From Deltaproteobacteria bacterium tcs-42 (GTDB lineage: Bacteria > Desulfobacterota > Desulfuromonadia > Desulfuromonadales > Geopsychrobacteraceae): a DNA stretch of 50,652 nucleotides. Positions 12,151 to 36,361 of this stretch are shown in pieces. The DNA lies in the NCBI GenBank assembly GCA_002049545.1, contig LLYT01000008.1, positions 1-50,652 on the forward strand. Reading direction: 5' to 3'. The notes beneath the pieces were generated by a model. That model did no database searches. It was given only the letters and a program-made list of their open reading frames with translations, and was not told the origin of the DNA. The translations under genes and the position numbers were made by a program. Numbering within the stretch: the first letter of the stretch is position 1; each line of letters starts with the position of its first letter.

Positions 12151-12213
12151 AAATTGTTTTTCTTTGTGTCTCCAGACTTCTGTGGTGGATAGAATTTTCA
12201 AAGGGATAAATTG

Positions 12214-14382
12214 ATGAATAAACAGCAGCGCAATAAAGACTATCGTCAGCGGATTGATCAAGCTCTGGCAACCCCGAAATTGCAGGAGGCGCTTCATCAA
12301 TTTGGTGATGCTTTCCTGATTTCGCGGGAAAAAGCCTTCACCGGTCTCGATTTTGAATCACTTCGTGGCAATATTTCGACAATGAAAACCGGGGTGAGAG
12401 AAAACCATGCCGAGTTGCTGCAACAATTTATCGCTAATGCTGAAGCTGCCGGGACAATTATTTACCGGGCAAAAACCGCCGCAGACGCCAATCGCTATAT
12501 TACCGAGTTGGCAAAGAAAAAAGGGGCAAAACTGGCGGTCAAAAGTAAAAGTATGGTCAGCGAAGAGACTCATCTGGGTGCAGCATTGGAAAAAGCTGGG
12601 ACCCAGTCACTGGAAACCGATTTAGGTGAATGGATTGTGCAGCTGGCGGGGCAGCGCCCCAGCCACATGGTGATGCCGGCAATCCATATGTTCAAGGAGG
12701 AGGTTGCCGAATTATTCAGCAAGGAAACGGGAAAGCAGGAACCTGCGGAGATTGAACATCTGGTTGAGGTGGCACGTAATCAATTACGTCAAAGCTATCT
12801 GGAGGCCGATATCGGTATCACCGGGGCCAATATTGCCGTTGCCGAAACGGGCGGAATTGCTCTGGTGACCAATGAGGGAAATGCACGGCTAGCCTCAACG
12901 ATGCCGAACGTGCATGTCGCTTTGGTGGGGATTGAAAAACTGGTTCCAACCCTGGAAGATGCTGCCCGAATTGTTCAGGTTCTGCCGAAAAATGCCACCG
13001 GTCAATTGTTGACTTCCTATGTCACCTGGATTCGTGGTGCGGTTCCCAGTGATGGAGATGAAAAAGAGTTCCATATTGTGCTGCTCGATAATGGCCGCAG
13101 TGCCTTGGCTGAATCGCCTCAATGTCAGGATGCCCTCAACTGCATCCGTTGTGGTGCCTGTGCCAATATCTGCCCGGTTTATCAGACCGTTGGCGGGCAT
13201 GTTTTCGGCCATATTTACATCGGCGCAATTGGTGTTATTCTGACTGCTTTTTATCATGGGCTGGATAACGCGGCGGAACTGGTTAAGGCGTGTATCGGTT
13301 GTCGATCATGCGTTGCTGTTTGCCCCAGTCAGATCGATCTGGAAGAGATTATCCTCCATCTGCGTGAAAAAGTCGGTGATGAAGAGGGGATAGGGACCGG
13401 TAAGGCTTTGGTTTTCCGCAAGGTGATGCAGAACCGTAAATTGTTCCATACCATGATCAAGGCTGCCAGCTTGTTGCAGAAGCCGGTGACCCGCGGGGAG
13501 CGGACGATTCGCCATTTACCACTGTTTTTCTCACCTCTGACAGAATGGCGAACTTTACCTGCGGTTGCCGATAAGGCCTTGCGTGATTCGTTCAGCGAGA
13601 AGGGGCAAAAGGTCGATCAACCACGCTATCGGGTTGCTTTGTTTGGTGGTTGCGCAAATGATTTTCTCTATCCCGAACTCGGCCTGGATCTTATTGAAGT
13701 GATGAATGCTCTCGATGTTGAAGTGTATTATCCCCTGGAGCAGAATTGTTGCGGTATCCCGGCGATCTACTCGGGCGATAAAGAGACTGCTGTTGAACTG
13801 GCAAAGCAGAATATTGATGCATTGCTGGCCGGGAGCCCCGATTACATTCTGACGACCTGCCCTACCTGCGCCATGGCGTTGAAACAAAATTTCGTTGAAC
13901 ATCTCAAAGATAATCCAGTCTGGGCGGAACGTGCAGAACAATTGTCTGCAATCACGATTGATGCCGCCAGCTTTGTGCTGAATCAGTTAGATGGTGCTGA
14001 AATGTTTGCTGATCTGGCTGAAAGTGAAAAAATTACTTACCACGATTCGTGTCACTTGAAACGGGGTGTCGGGGTGTGGCAGGAACCACGTCAGCTGATT
14101 GAGAAATCTGGACACAAATTAGTTGAAATGGATCACGCCGATCGGTGTTGTGGATTTGGAGGTTCTTATTCTCTGACCAGTCATCCCGATATTTCGAAAA
14201 AAATTCTGCAGGATAAGGTTGCCGATATTGAAAAGTCTGCAGCAACCTGCGTGGCAATGGACTGTCCCGGTTGCATGATGCAGATTCGCGGCGGATTGGA
14301 AAAATCTGAATCTTCGGTTCGTGCTCAGCACACCATTGAATTGTTGGCAGCAGCGTTGAGGAATAAAACAACTAAAAAATGA
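12214..14382 (+). CDS. Fused LutB-LutA type L-lactate oxidation Fe-S protein
   Basis: A 722-residue protein. The N-terminal LUD domain shows DIGITGANIAVAETGGIALV near residues 195-214. Two 4Fe-4S motifs follow (CIRCGACANICP and CIGCRSCVAVCP, around 310-370), as in LutB. The C-terminal third carries two CCG domains (NCCGIPAIYSGDKETA, TTCPTCAMAL, YHDSCHLKRG, DRCCGFGGSYSL), the hallmark of LutA. One gene therefore replaces lutA and lutB. It should act with LutC to oxidise L-lactate to pyruvate. TTG at 12211 is followed by ATG at 12214, and AAGGGA at 12201-12206 supports the ATG. Confidence 0.9.
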   Translation: MNKQQRNKDYRQRIDQALATPKLQEALHQFGDAFLISREKAFTGLDFESLRGNISTMKTGVRENHAELLQQFIANAEAAGTIIYRAKTAADANRYITELAKKKGAKLAVKSKSMVSEETHLGAALEKAGTQSLETDLGEWIVQLAGQRPSHMVMPAIHMFKEEVAELFSKETGKQEPAEIEHLVEVARNQLRQSYLEADIGITGANIAVAETGGIALVTNEGNARLASTMPNVHVALVGIEKLVPTLEDAARIVQVLPKNATGQLLTSYVTWIRGAVPSDGDEKEFHIVLLDNGRSALAESPQCQDALNCIRCGACANICPVYQTVGGHVFGHIYIGAIGVILTAFYHGLDNAAELVKACIGCRSCVAVCPSQIDLEEIILHLREKVGDEEGIGTGKALVFRKVMQNRKLFHTMIKAASLLQKPVTRGERTIRHLPLFFSPLTEWRTLPAVADKALRDSFSEKGQKVDQPRYRVALFGGCANDFLYPELGLDLIEVMNALDVEVYYPLEQNCCGIPAIYSGDKETAVELAKQNIDALLAGSPDYILTTCPTCAMALKQNFVEHLKDNPVWAERAEQLSAITIDAASFVLNQLDGAEMFADLAESEKITYHDSCHLKRGVGVWQEPRQLIEKSGHKLVEMDHADRCCGFGGSYSLTSHPDISKKILQDKVADIEKSAATCVAMDCPGCMMQIRGGLEKSESSVRAQHTIELLAAALRNKTTKK

Positions 14383-14424
14383 TGCATTTGCCAAATAGCA
14401 TTGGATGGCTATGCTAAATTTTTG

Positions 14425-14477
14425 TCCTGAAAAACCAGCGTAACGGCTTAGAGCGGACTTTTTGCGACGCAGTCAAA
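14425..14477 (+). repeat. Dispersed intergenic repeat B, copy 2
   Basis: Starts TCCTGAAAAACCAGCGTAAC and ends with TTTTTGCGACGCAGTCAAA. It aligns without gaps to 11304-11356. In both places it sits in the intergenic space flanking the lut genes. Confidence 0.6.
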
Positions 14478-14527
14478 AATATTTCAAAACCTTTTTTATA
14501 CGTGTGAATCTCTCTCCTACGTTATTC

Positions 14528-14559
14528 CCCACCAGAATCTCCTCCCTGGCGGGTATTTT
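14528..14559 (+). terminator. Terminator-like hairpin with CUCCUCC loop (weak sRNA candidate)
   Basis: CCC-A-CCAG at 14528-14535 pairs with CTGG-C-GGG at 14546-14553, with one mismatch. The 10-base loop is AATCTCCTCC and TATTTTA follows. It may end the lutBA transcript. The loop carries the same CUCCU anti-Shine-Dalgarno core as two stronger small RNA candidates in this window. No good promoter was found just upstream; a TATACG at 14497 lacks a -35 partner. Confidence 0.5.
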
Positions 14560-14567
14560 ATTTCAAG

Positions 14568-14713
14568 GTAAACTGTTCAGCAATGCCTTGAGGCACCCAT
14601 TCCAAGGGCCACTTTGCGCCGTCCATGGCCGTTCGACTGTCGCCGTCTGTGGCGACAGACGCCCTTTCCATGGGTCCCACAAGCCCCTATCAGTAGTGGT
14701 GGTGAATAGTTAC
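14568..14713 (+). mobile_element. MITE-like element, copy 2 (146 bp)
   Basis: The left end GTAAACTGTTCAGC has one extra A relative to the other copies. The right end GGTGAATAGTTAC is the complement of GTAACTATTCACC. It is flanked by ATTTCAAG (14560-14567) and ATCTCAAG (14714-14721), an 8-bp target duplication with one mismatch. This copy is in the same orientation as copy 3 and opposite to copy 1. It lies directly after the hairpin at 14528-14559. Confidence 0.85.
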
Positions 14714-14823
14714 ATCTCAAGTAGCATCGAAGTTATAAAGCTTGAAGCTTCCCCCCATCAAATGGTATCTTTTCTTGCATTTATTTAACCTGCGATCGGT
14801 TATTGTTTTCCGGAGAAAAGGTT

Positions 14824-17419: not shown

Positions 17420-17448
17420 TTGACAATGGTGACTTATTTAGTTATAAA
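17420..17448 (+). promoter_or_regulatory. Strong sigma-70 promoter of the small RNA candidate
   Basis: A perfect -35 TTGACA (17420-17425), an exact 17-base spacer and TATAAA (17443-17448) predict transcription start near 17455. This is the best promoter match in the window. Confidence 0.8.
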
Positions 17449-17454
17449 TGAGCC

Positions 17455-17565
17455 ATCAACGAATTGTTGTGGCAGGCGAGACGTTGATAGTCAAAGTAAA
17501 TATCTTTCGAGAAACCTCTCAAAATGTTGCCCCGTGACCCCCCTCCTGGTCACGGGGTTTTTTTT
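17455..17565 (+). ncRNA. Putative small RNA with CCCCUCCU terminator loop
   Basis: About 111 bases between a consensus promoter and a strong terminator, with no credible reading frame. From the predicted start, ATCAACG (17455-17461) pairs with CGTTGAT (17482-17488). Small AAAG/CTTT and GAGA/TCTC stems follow. The terminator has a 10-bp perfect stem, CCCCGTGACC (17530-17539) with GGTCACGGGG (17548-17557), a loop CCCCTCCT and eight U. The loop is complementary to Shine-Dalgarno AGGAGG, suggesting a trans-acting RNA that binds ribosome binding sites. No known RNA family was recognised. Confidence 0.7.
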
Positions 17566-34065: not shown

Positions 34066-35178
34066 TCAATCAATCTGGTCAAGAAATGCTTTAAGCAAAG
34101 GAATATACTTTTCCGGTTCAACCAAAAAGGAATCGTGTCCATAGTCGGAGTCGATTAAATGGTAGTCGGCAGTTTTATTCAAGCGTTGCAGTTCGGTGAC
34201 CAGCTCTTCGGCTTGCTGGGGAGGGTAGAGCCAGTCGGAGCTGAATGAAAACCAGAGTGATGGACAGTTGATCCGTTCCAGAGCTTCACTGAGAGAATCG
34301 AAACCCCAGGTCACATCATACAGATCCAGGGCTTTGGCCAGATAGAGGAATGAGTTGGGGTCAAACTGATCGACAAAATTCTTGCCGTTGTAATCGAGAT
34401 AGCGTTCAATTTCAAACTTGCCGAAAAAATCGAATATCCCGTCCCGCACCGAAAAACGCCGTTCAAATTTTAACTGCATCGAGACATCTGATAAAAAAGA
34501 GATATGGCCCACAGCTCGTGCCAGGGCGAGTCCATCAGCAGGGGGGTGTTCGGGCTTGTAATTGCCTTTCTTCCATAGTGGATCATTAAATATCGCTTGT
34601 CGTGCCAGTGAATTCAATGAAATCGCCATGGGGGAAGTGCATCCCGTTCCGGCAATGGGGACGATGGAGCGGACCCTGTCTGGAAAATGGATCGCCCATT
34701 CGATTGCCTGCATCGCCCCCATGGAGCCACCAACATTTGAAAGGAGTGACTTGATGCCAAGATGGTCAAGCAGCAATTTTTGTGCGCGAACCATATCGCG
34801 AACCATCAGAACCGGAAAGCTGAGGCGATAGGGTCGTTGAGTGCGGGGATTAATACTGGTTGGGCCAGTTGAGCCGTGACATGAGCCAATAGTGTTGCTG
34901 CAGATAATGAAATAACGATCGGTATCGAGAACTTTTCCCGGACCGATCATATTGTCCCACCAGCCGGGCTTGCGATCTTCGTCTGAATGACGCCCGGCAG
35001 CATGAGCATTTCCGGTCCAGGCGTGGCTGACCATAATTGCGTTGGAAGCATCCTGGTTCAGTTCGCCGTAAGTTTCATAAGCCAGGGTGAGGGGGCCAAG
35101 CAAGCGACCACTTTCAAGCCGGAGTTCGAGGTCAAAATCTACATATTTGGTCGTCACAATACCGATACTGTTGTCCAA
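34066..35178 (-). CDS. metX: Homoserine O-acetyltransferase
   Basis: A 370-residue alpha/beta-hydrolase that makes O-acetyl-L-homoserine in methionine synthesis. The nucleophile elbow is [12 protein letters not shown], and the C-terminal [14 protein letters not shown] holds the catalytic histidine. [13 protein letters not shown] and [10 protein letters not shown] are typical of the family. The longest open frame would begin at 35208 inside the riboswitch terminator stem. The TTG at 35178 has AGGGGA six bases upstream and leaves the family-like N-terminus ([13 protein letters not shown]). Expression is controlled by the SAM-I riboswitch upstream. Confidence 0.92.
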
Positions 35179-35203
35179 GTCACATCCCCTGTTGTCAGTG
35201 CCA

Positions 35204-35247
35204 ATCAAAAAGGCCCTTTCCCATTTTCAGGAAAGGGCCTTTTTGAT
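35204..35247 (-). terminator. Riboswitch-controlled terminator of metX
   Basis: An 18-bp perfect stem, 35204-35221 with 35230-35247, core AAAAAGGCCCTTTCC, ends on the minus strand in a UUUUU run. It lies 28 bases after the aptamer, ahead of the metX ribosome binding site, so SAM binding would favour termination. Confidence 0.9.
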
Positions 35248-35274: not shown

Positions 35275-35405
35275 GTCCCCATCTGTCCCTGAGTTGATAT
35301 GTCAGCAGGGCAGGAATTGGCACCGACCTTTTCCTTTTTACAACAAGGAATGTCGGTTGCCGTGGCTTCAAAGGGCCTTCTCCCTCCACCACTCTGGATA
35401 AAGAC
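35275..35405 (-). ncRNA. SAM-I riboswitch aptamer
   Basis: The minus strand contains the conserved SAM-I core: GTGGTGGAGGGAGAAGGCCC, then GAAGCCACGGCAACC and later GGTGCCAATTCCTGC. P1 can be drawn as GTCTTTATC (complement of 35397-35405) with GATGGGGAC (complement of 35275-35283), all nine pairs including G-U. P4 is CCCTG/CAGGG. It is followed by the terminator at 35204-35247 and then metX, so it represses methionine synthesis when SAM is plentiful. Confidence 0.95.
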
Positions 35406-35605: not shown

Positions 35606-35633
35606 TTGACGGGGCTTAATTGCGTAGTAAAAT
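35606..35633 (+). promoter_or_regulatory. Promoter of the second small RNA candidate
   Basis: TTGACG at 35606-35611, a 16-base spacer and TAAAAT at 35628-35633, predicting a start near 35640. Confidence 0.55.
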
Positions 35634-35639
35634 AGATAT

Positions 35640-35723
35640 GAACCTGTTCCTTTACAGAAGGCTGTGGCAGCCTTCTGTTTTACCCTGGACGTCCTAATCC
35701 CTCCTGGACTCCAGGGTTTTTTT
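35640..35723 (+). ncRNA. Putative small RNA with UCCCUCCU terminator loop
   Basis: About 84 bases with two strong hairpins. The first is ACAGAAGGCTG (35654-35664) with CAGCCTTCTGT (35668-35678), 11 perfect pairs and a 3-base loop. The second is the terminator: ACCCTGGA (35682-35689), a bulged C, GTCC (35691-35694), loop TAATCCCTCCT, then GGAC and TCCAGGGT followed by seven U. The loop sequence CCCTCCT followed by GG is shared with the small RNA at 17455-17565. No reading frame is credible. A role in binding ribosome binding sites is inferred from the loop. Confidence 0.62.
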
Positions 35724-35783: not shown

Positions 35784-35927
35784 GTATCTGTTCAGCAATG
35801 CCTTGAGGCACCCATTCCAAGGGCCACTTTGCGCCGTCCATGGCCGTTCGACTGTCGCCGTCCGTGGCGACAGTCGAACGGCCATGGGTACCACAAGCCC
35901 CTATCAGTAGTGGTGGTGAATAGTTAC
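35784..35927 (+). mobile_element. MITE-like element, copy 3 (144 bp)
   Basis: Ends GTATCTGTTCAGC and (complement) GTAACTATTCACC. It is flanked by the perfect 8-bp direct repeat GTTCGGTT at 35776-35783 and 35928-35935. In this copy the interior is a perfect 22-bp inverted repeat (35838-35859 with 35866-35887, loop GTCCGT); copies 1 and 2 have a diverged right arm. The element supplies the stop codon (TAA, complement of 35924-35926) of the Rrf2 regulator gene. Confidence 0.92.
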
Positions 35928-36361
35928 GTTCGGTTTTTTAAAAAATCTAACTTCTCTTTTTCTCTGCGAACCAGATCGGCAATACTGTAGCGTTTCAGGA
36001 CTTCGGCCATTTCACGCTGGGCGTCGTGCCAGACTTCATGAGCCGAACAGTAGCCATCACGGTGGCATGCCGAAGTATCAACAAGGCAGTGGTTTAATTT
36101 CAACTGACCCTCTTCTGCCTGCAAAACGTCGAGCATATTGATTTCACCCGGATCTTTGGCCAGCAGGAAACCACCACCGACGCCACGCTGTGAGCTGACA
36201 ATTCCTGCTTTGATCAGTGGCTGAAGGATTTTTGTTAAAAATGCCGGGGTGACCTCCTGAGTACGGCAGATATCTTTTTTTAACACAATGTCATTCTTGG
36301 GCTGTTGAGCTAAATAAATGACTGTTCTTACCGCGTACTCAGTTGCTCGTGTAATAACCAC
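35924..36361 (-). CDS. Rrf2-family transcriptional regulator
   Basis: A 145-residue winged-helix regulator. It has the Rrf2 N-terminus (ITRATEYAVRTVIYLAQ) and the recognition region AFLTKILQPLIKAGIVSSQRGVGGGF. Three cysteines at about 92-105 (CLVDTSACHRDGYC) are spaced like the Fe-S ligands of IscR/NsrR/RsrR proteins, so redox, NO or Fe-S sensing is likely. The start is GTG at 36361 with AGGAGG six bases upstream. The last codon and stop were altered by mobile element insertion: the original frame would have added one serine before its own TAA. No target gene is adjacent. Confidence 0.88.
   Translation of the reverse strand: MVITRATEYAVRTVIYLAQQPKNDIVLKKDICRTQEVTPAFLTKILQPLIKAGIVSSQRGVGGGFLLAKDPGEINMLDVLQAEEGQLKLNHCLVDTSACHRDGYCSAHEVWHDAQREMAEVLKRYSIADLVRREKEKLDFLKNRT

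Follow-up and report, generated by a model that had tools for sequence, protein, structure and literature searches.

Desulfuromonadia small RNAs ending in C-rich terminator loops as candidate trans-acting anti-Shine-Dalgarno regulators

The window, that is, the whole stretch of 50,652 nucleotides analysed here, contains two loci, sRNA-A and sRNA-B, with the organization of autonomous small RNA genes: a promoter of their own, a covarying 5′ hairpin and an intrinsic terminator. sRNA-A is conserved over an order and sRNA-B over the whole class. A conserved free C-rich loop, a promoter and a terminator, the sequence traits of trans-acting anti-Shine-Dalgarno sRNAs, were found. We consider it probable that sRNA-A and sRNA-B are RNAs of this type, sRNA-B being a form of the atoC RNA and sRNA-A a variously regulated RNA, and that a third hairpin, at 14528-14559, belongs to a 3′-end RNA of lutB.

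CUCCU loops among the terminators of the genome

Direct reading and folding confirmed the three terminator hairpins described in the first-pass annotation, with the loops CCCCTCCT in sRNA-A (17540-17547), TAATCCCTCCT in sRNA-B (35695-35705) and AATCTCCTCC in the third hairpin (14536-14545), as well as the presence at the loop edge of CCCTCCTGG in both sRNA-A (17541-17549) and sRNA-B (35699-35707). The fold energies of the sRNA-A and sRNA-B terminators are -22.3 and -20.4 kcal/mol, and that of the 14528 hairpin, which has an A x C mismatch in its stem and a weak U tail, is -10.5 kcal/mol. CCCTCCTGG alone was discarded as a marker: it has 20 sites in the genome, most of them outside terminators and one in a tRNA-like context.

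The check proposed in the first-pass annotation, whether terminators have CUCCU loops more often than expected, gave no clear bulk enrichment. A survey of 450 kb of the genome, sampled as stretches among which the window was counted, gave 77 strong terminator-like hairpins; 2 of them, both in the window, have CTCCT or CCTCC loops, against 0.13 expected from pooled loop letters (P 0.008) and 0.89 expected by shuffling within loops (P 0.21); whether two such loops are unusual depends on the null model chosen. The pattern CTCCT-N(3-20)-T6 gave 95 matches genome-wide and the reversed pattern 80, and folding of roughly 50 of the former yielded, besides sRNA-A and sRNA-B, a single hairpin that is strong and leaves CTCCT open in its loop, named sRNA-D. 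The bulk frequency of these loops is neither proof nor refutation of regulatory RNAs, and in the absence of clear enrichment the case rests on the conservation of these particular RNAs.

Elsewhere in the own genome, two small RNAs of this design emerged in a low-stringency search with the sRNA-B covariance model (R1). One (G000:C101:8118-8176, minus strand) has the C-rich terminator loop UACCCCCCCUCC and relatives in genomes G031 and G017 (L125, L126); the other (G000:C74:11044-11096, plus strand) shows ACCUCCU in its loop and is preceded by the promoter TTGACA-TATAAT. As to the earlier description of the three window RNAs as siblings, a common design is supported, and common descent of sRNA-A, sRNA-B and the RNA of the third hairpin, sRNA-E, is not established.

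sRNA-A and the control of its promoters

sRNA-A is a stand-alone small RNA of about 110 nt on the plus strand (17454-17565), supported by BLASTN matches in relatives and by a model of its 5′ hairpin (R2). Its promoter, TTGACA-17-TATAAA, was read directly at 17420-17448 (+), and the entire -35/-10 region is kept in about ten relatives. The 5′ hairpin (17453-17490, +) presents GUGGCA in its loop, inside the near-invariant UUGUUGUGGCAGGC; part of the R2 training set was gathered with a loop-fixing pattern, so that loop invariance in this model is partly selected. The hairpin covaries, with a score of 0.464 versus 0.187 ± 0.016 and 76 compensatory cells versus 26.9 in shuffled controls. The terminator (17529-17565, +) consists of an 11-bp stem, the loop CCCCUCCU and 8 U, and among relatives its stem letters vary and the C-rich loop is retained. 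Many copies carry the linker ACCUCCUUUCU, which reads like the 3′ tail of 16S rRNA. Kissing of the GUGGCA and terminator loops, possible by eye in some copies, was rejected for not being conserved.

BLASTN (E ≤ 0.01) detected sRNA-A in 42 of 98 genomes, the own genome included. R2, which gives the window copy 50.2 bits, finds the hairpin in 66 of 200 Desulfuromonadia genomes, at most 8 times in any one of them, and essentially nowhere outside the order. Scanning the collection for the hairpin motif plus CCTCC led to Desulfuromusa, Desulfuromonas, Malonomonas and Pelovirga (Desulfuromonadales), and also to chance matches lacking hairpins; by this the window belongs to Desulfuromusa or a close neighbour of it. 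No Rfam family exceeded its cut-off for sRNA-A. Membership of RF01733 was rejected at 28.3 bits (cut-off 50), since only the terminator aligned well and the 5′ hairpin did not match. sRNA-A is a member of a multicopy family absent from Rfam. At two loci (L065, L071) a second C-rich terminator hairpin, with CCCCCCCUCC in its loop, lies some 180-200 bases upstream of the listed match, an arrangement that suggests tandem small RNAs.

Between the -35 and -10 elements of the window copy lies the operator-like palindrome TGACTTATTTAGTTA (17430-17444, +). It matches 13 of 15 positions of an IscR type-1-like motif; none of 300 shuffles reached this match, and no other plus-strand site of the window scores at least 13/15. 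A relative (L060) has a perfect palindrome of this kind, TGACTATTTTAGTCA. We infer that an IscR-like regulator would act at the window palindrome. Eight sRNA-A copies elsewhere, not the window copy, have Fur-box-like sites matching at 15 of 17 positions (each P ≤ 0.004 against shuffles) when their promoters are scored with the delta-proteobacterial consensus WTGAAAATNATTTTCAW (PMC545781). A search of G017 for the Fur-like pattern with up to three mismatches gave no match, so the Fur reading comes solely from the upstream scans. The copies of other families have distal GCACAG and TTTACG...CACGTG elements in common. Copies at L115, L116, L117 and L142 are clustered, a separate GCACAG / TTTACG-CACGTG element lying upstream of each copy, and the distal site of L117 is the palindrome CTGTGCGAATGCACAG. 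The sRNA-A copies are apparently under different transcription factors, several of them predicted to respond to iron or Fe-S status.

sRNA-B, the atoC RNA and the hairpin downstream of lutB

sRNA-B, of about 83 nt (35640-35723, +; R1), is preceded by the promoter TTGACG-16-TAAAAT (35606-35633, +; 10/12 in the promoter scan), whose TTGAC and following -10-like element recur in the homologues. The proposal of independent genes with their own promoters holds for sRNA-A and sRNA-B, in both of which the promoter was read directly. Covariation is found in both the 5′ hairpin (35654-35678, +), which has a GUGGCA loop and 6 of 9 pairs changed on both sides, and the terminator (35682-35722, +; loop UAAUCCCUCCU). 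Throughout an alignment of 27 sequences whose helices show two-sided changes, CCCTCCTGG is unchanged. Among 53 distinct sRNA-B terminators, with 49 distinct 5′ arms, CCCTCCT occurs in all 53 and CCCTCC falls in the predicted loop in 49, in a count that required CC[TC][TC]CC near the hairpin and would miss copies without it. Evolution fixes the CCCUCCU of the terminator loop, which is predicted to be single-stranded.

sRNA-B, of which a genome usually has one copy, was detected by BLASTN in 40 of 98 relatives and by R1 (99.5 bits for the window copy, itself in the training set) in 169 of 200 Desulfuromonadia genomes. In a phylum-wide sample R1 recognized 12 of 14 members of the class versus 8 of about 282 genomes outside it. 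The Rfam model of the atoC RNA, RF01733, aligns with the window sRNA-B over its full length at 28.9 bits (E 0.0016), below the cut-off of 50, and passes this cut-off in 107 of the 200 genomes; across the class the loci recognized by R1 coincide with those of RF01733 in most genomes. In G075, where RF01733 reaches 53.5 bits and passes the cut-off, gene order equals that of the window, with an alpha/beta hydrolase gene upstream on the opposite strand and an Rrf2 gene and a tRNA-synthetase-like gene downstream. On account of the shared loci and of this gene order, sRNA-B is to be regarded, at the level of sequence and synteny, as a divergent homologue of the atoC RNA, its Desulfuromusa form, and not as a new RNA. 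Both RNAs consist of two hairpins, the second being a terminator with a CCCUCCU loop (PMC2864571), and they differ in the loop of the 5′ hairpin. GUGGCA is found in sRNA-B of the Desulfuromusa family only and is missing from that of other families. A SAM riboswitch (RF00162, 73.8 bits; 35276-35404, -) lies upstream of the window alpha/beta hydrolase gene (34066-35208).

RF01733 is typed as Cis-reg in Rfam, and the atoC RNA was marked 'y' for cis-regulation by Weinberg et al. 2010 (PMC2864571), which raises the alternative that it, and hence sRNA-B, is a leader or attenuator controlling the downstream gene. Some Geobacterales do have a same-strand open frame shortly downstream. However, the gene order around sRNA-B fits this label poorly, no constant gene following the RNA: the next gene is convergent or variable. 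In the window it is a convergent Rrf2-family regulator gene (35924-36361, -; PF02082, 126.7 bits), which is also found at 36 of the 56 sRNA-B loci examined; in Desulfuromonadales the next gene is convergent and there is no fixed upstream gene, and Geobacterales lack a constant downstream gene. Both the convergence with Rrf2 and the variability of the opposite flank speak against cis-regulation, which we hold to be quite improbable, and a trans-acting sRNA would be a better description of sRNA-B than a leader.

The third hairpin lies downstream of a lutB-like fusion gene (12211-14382, +) with LUD, Fer4 and CCG domains (Pfam). The earlier suggestion that its RNA is a 3′-end product of this gene is plausible, given that the 14500-14559 segment recurs 3′ of lutB-like genes, though in only three other genomes (G021, G017 and G024; loci L332-L334), and that in G021 the homologue begins about ten bases past the lutB stop, as fits a 3′-end product. 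The segment comprises a 5′ hairpin (14500-14523, +) exposing CUCUCUCC, with homologues in the three genomes, and the 14528-14559 hairpin (+; loop AAUCUCCUCC), in which CTCCTC is kept in the loop in 4 of 4 genomes and the stem is compensated from GCCAGG/CCTGGC to GTCAGG/CCTGAC, the window copy being the weakest of the four. A weak promoter candidate, TTGCCA-16-TATGCT (14388-14415, +; 9/12), just follows the lutB stop, and at a comparable place G017 and G024 have TTGACA-16-TATATT. The 14528 hairpin is plausibly a lutB 3′-end RNA with the same kind of loop, a third and weaker case. Repeats lie nearby: an interspersed one between lutB and the hairpin (14424-14476), with about two dozen matches in the own genome and many order-wide, and an element of about 140 bases after the terminators of both sRNA-E (14573-14715) and sRNA-B (35790-35932, with a perfect 22-base inverted repeat), whose first 54 bases recur at several other loci of the own genome.

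Proposed mode of action and related systems

In the proposed mechanism sRNA-A and sRNA-B would act in trans, the terminator loop pairing with the Shine-Dalgarno sequence of target mRNAs and blocking their translation; in many sRNA-A copies the ACCUCCUUUCU linker could pair with such sequences as well. Hfq binds the 3′ U tails of RNAs of this type; all 58 genomes inspected, among them the own genome, encode it, and it would probably assist pairing. Against this mechanism it can be argued that seven loop letters able to pair with any strong Shine-Dalgarno sequence give little selectivity alone, that terminators in bulk show no clear excess of CUCCU loops, and that the 14528 hairpin is weak and was found in only three other genomes.

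The same lack of enrichment would agree with ordinary terminators whose loops are C-rich by chance, no regulatory RNA being involved, and the 14528 hairpin may merely end the lutB transcript. For sRNA-A and sRNA-B this explanation is disfavoured, and overall very improbable, in view of an invariant loop beside covarying stems, of their own promoters, and of the class-wide presence of sRNA-B and the multicopy nature of the sRNA-A family. Titration of a protein, in the manner of a CsrB-type sponge, with the GUGGCA hairpin or the C-rich loop as the binding site and in place of pairing with mRNAs, is also unlikely. The near-invariance of the GUGGCA loop of sRNA-A, its presence in sRNA-B of the Desulfuromusa family and the two GUGGCA hairpins at each of L141 and L203 speak for titration; there is, however, usually one such hairpin per RNA, sRNA-B of other families lacks it, and the feature common to sRNA-A, sRNA-B and the other siblings is the CCUCC loop.

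The proposed pairing through C-rich loops has parallels elsewhere. The CcsR 'cuckoo' RNAs of Rhodobacter are CCUCCUCCC-loop sRNAs. SmelA075 and SmelA099 of Rhizobiales are of the same kind (PMC3927594). Like them, sRNA-A and sRNA-B keep an anti-Shine-Dalgarno motif fixed in hairpin loops with variable stems; unlike them, they do not repeat it in each of three or four hairpins, having it in a single loop, that of the terminator, together with the linker, and showing another motif in the 5′ hairpin. IsrR of Staphylococcus and FsrA of Bacillus, which are Fur-controlled, pair with Shine-Dalgarno sequences through C-rich single-stranded regions (PMC9410917). sRNA-A resembles them in these regions and possibly, for some copies, in Fur control, but shares no sequence homology with them, and differs in that the C-rich regions of IsrR lie outside the terminator and in that its iron control is a prediction which does not extend to the window copy. 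The likeness to SmelA075/SmelA099 and IsrR is one of design, without established homology. The anti-hemB RNA of Burkholderia (RF02837) shows a weak GC-rich terminator resemblance (18-19 bits, far under its cut-off of 49.5), which involves the stem and U tail and not the loop.

In the literature consulted, a search on Desulfobacterota and iron-reducing bacteria turned up no account of a comparable regulatory sRNA, and one on the function of the atoC RNA gave one table entry only. A wider reading, which we offer tentatively, is that of a layered system of Shine-Dalgarno-mimic sRNAs in Desulfuromonadia (sRNA-A to sRNA-E). By placing a similar pairing module behind promoters of several types (Fur-like, IscR-like or of another regulator), such a system might form the iron- and Fe-S-sparing arm of iron- and sulfur-reducing bacteria, with the atoC RNA as the class-wide core. 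If the proposed function is true, the atoC RNA, a poorly understood Rfam motif, would become a candidate for a core sRNA in the Geobacter/Desulfuromonas class, Rfam would gain a multicopy family, sRNA-A, and iron-reducing bacteria would acquire testable riboregulators. These RNAs suggest that iron- and sulfur-breathing bacteria may use many such molecules to turn translation off.
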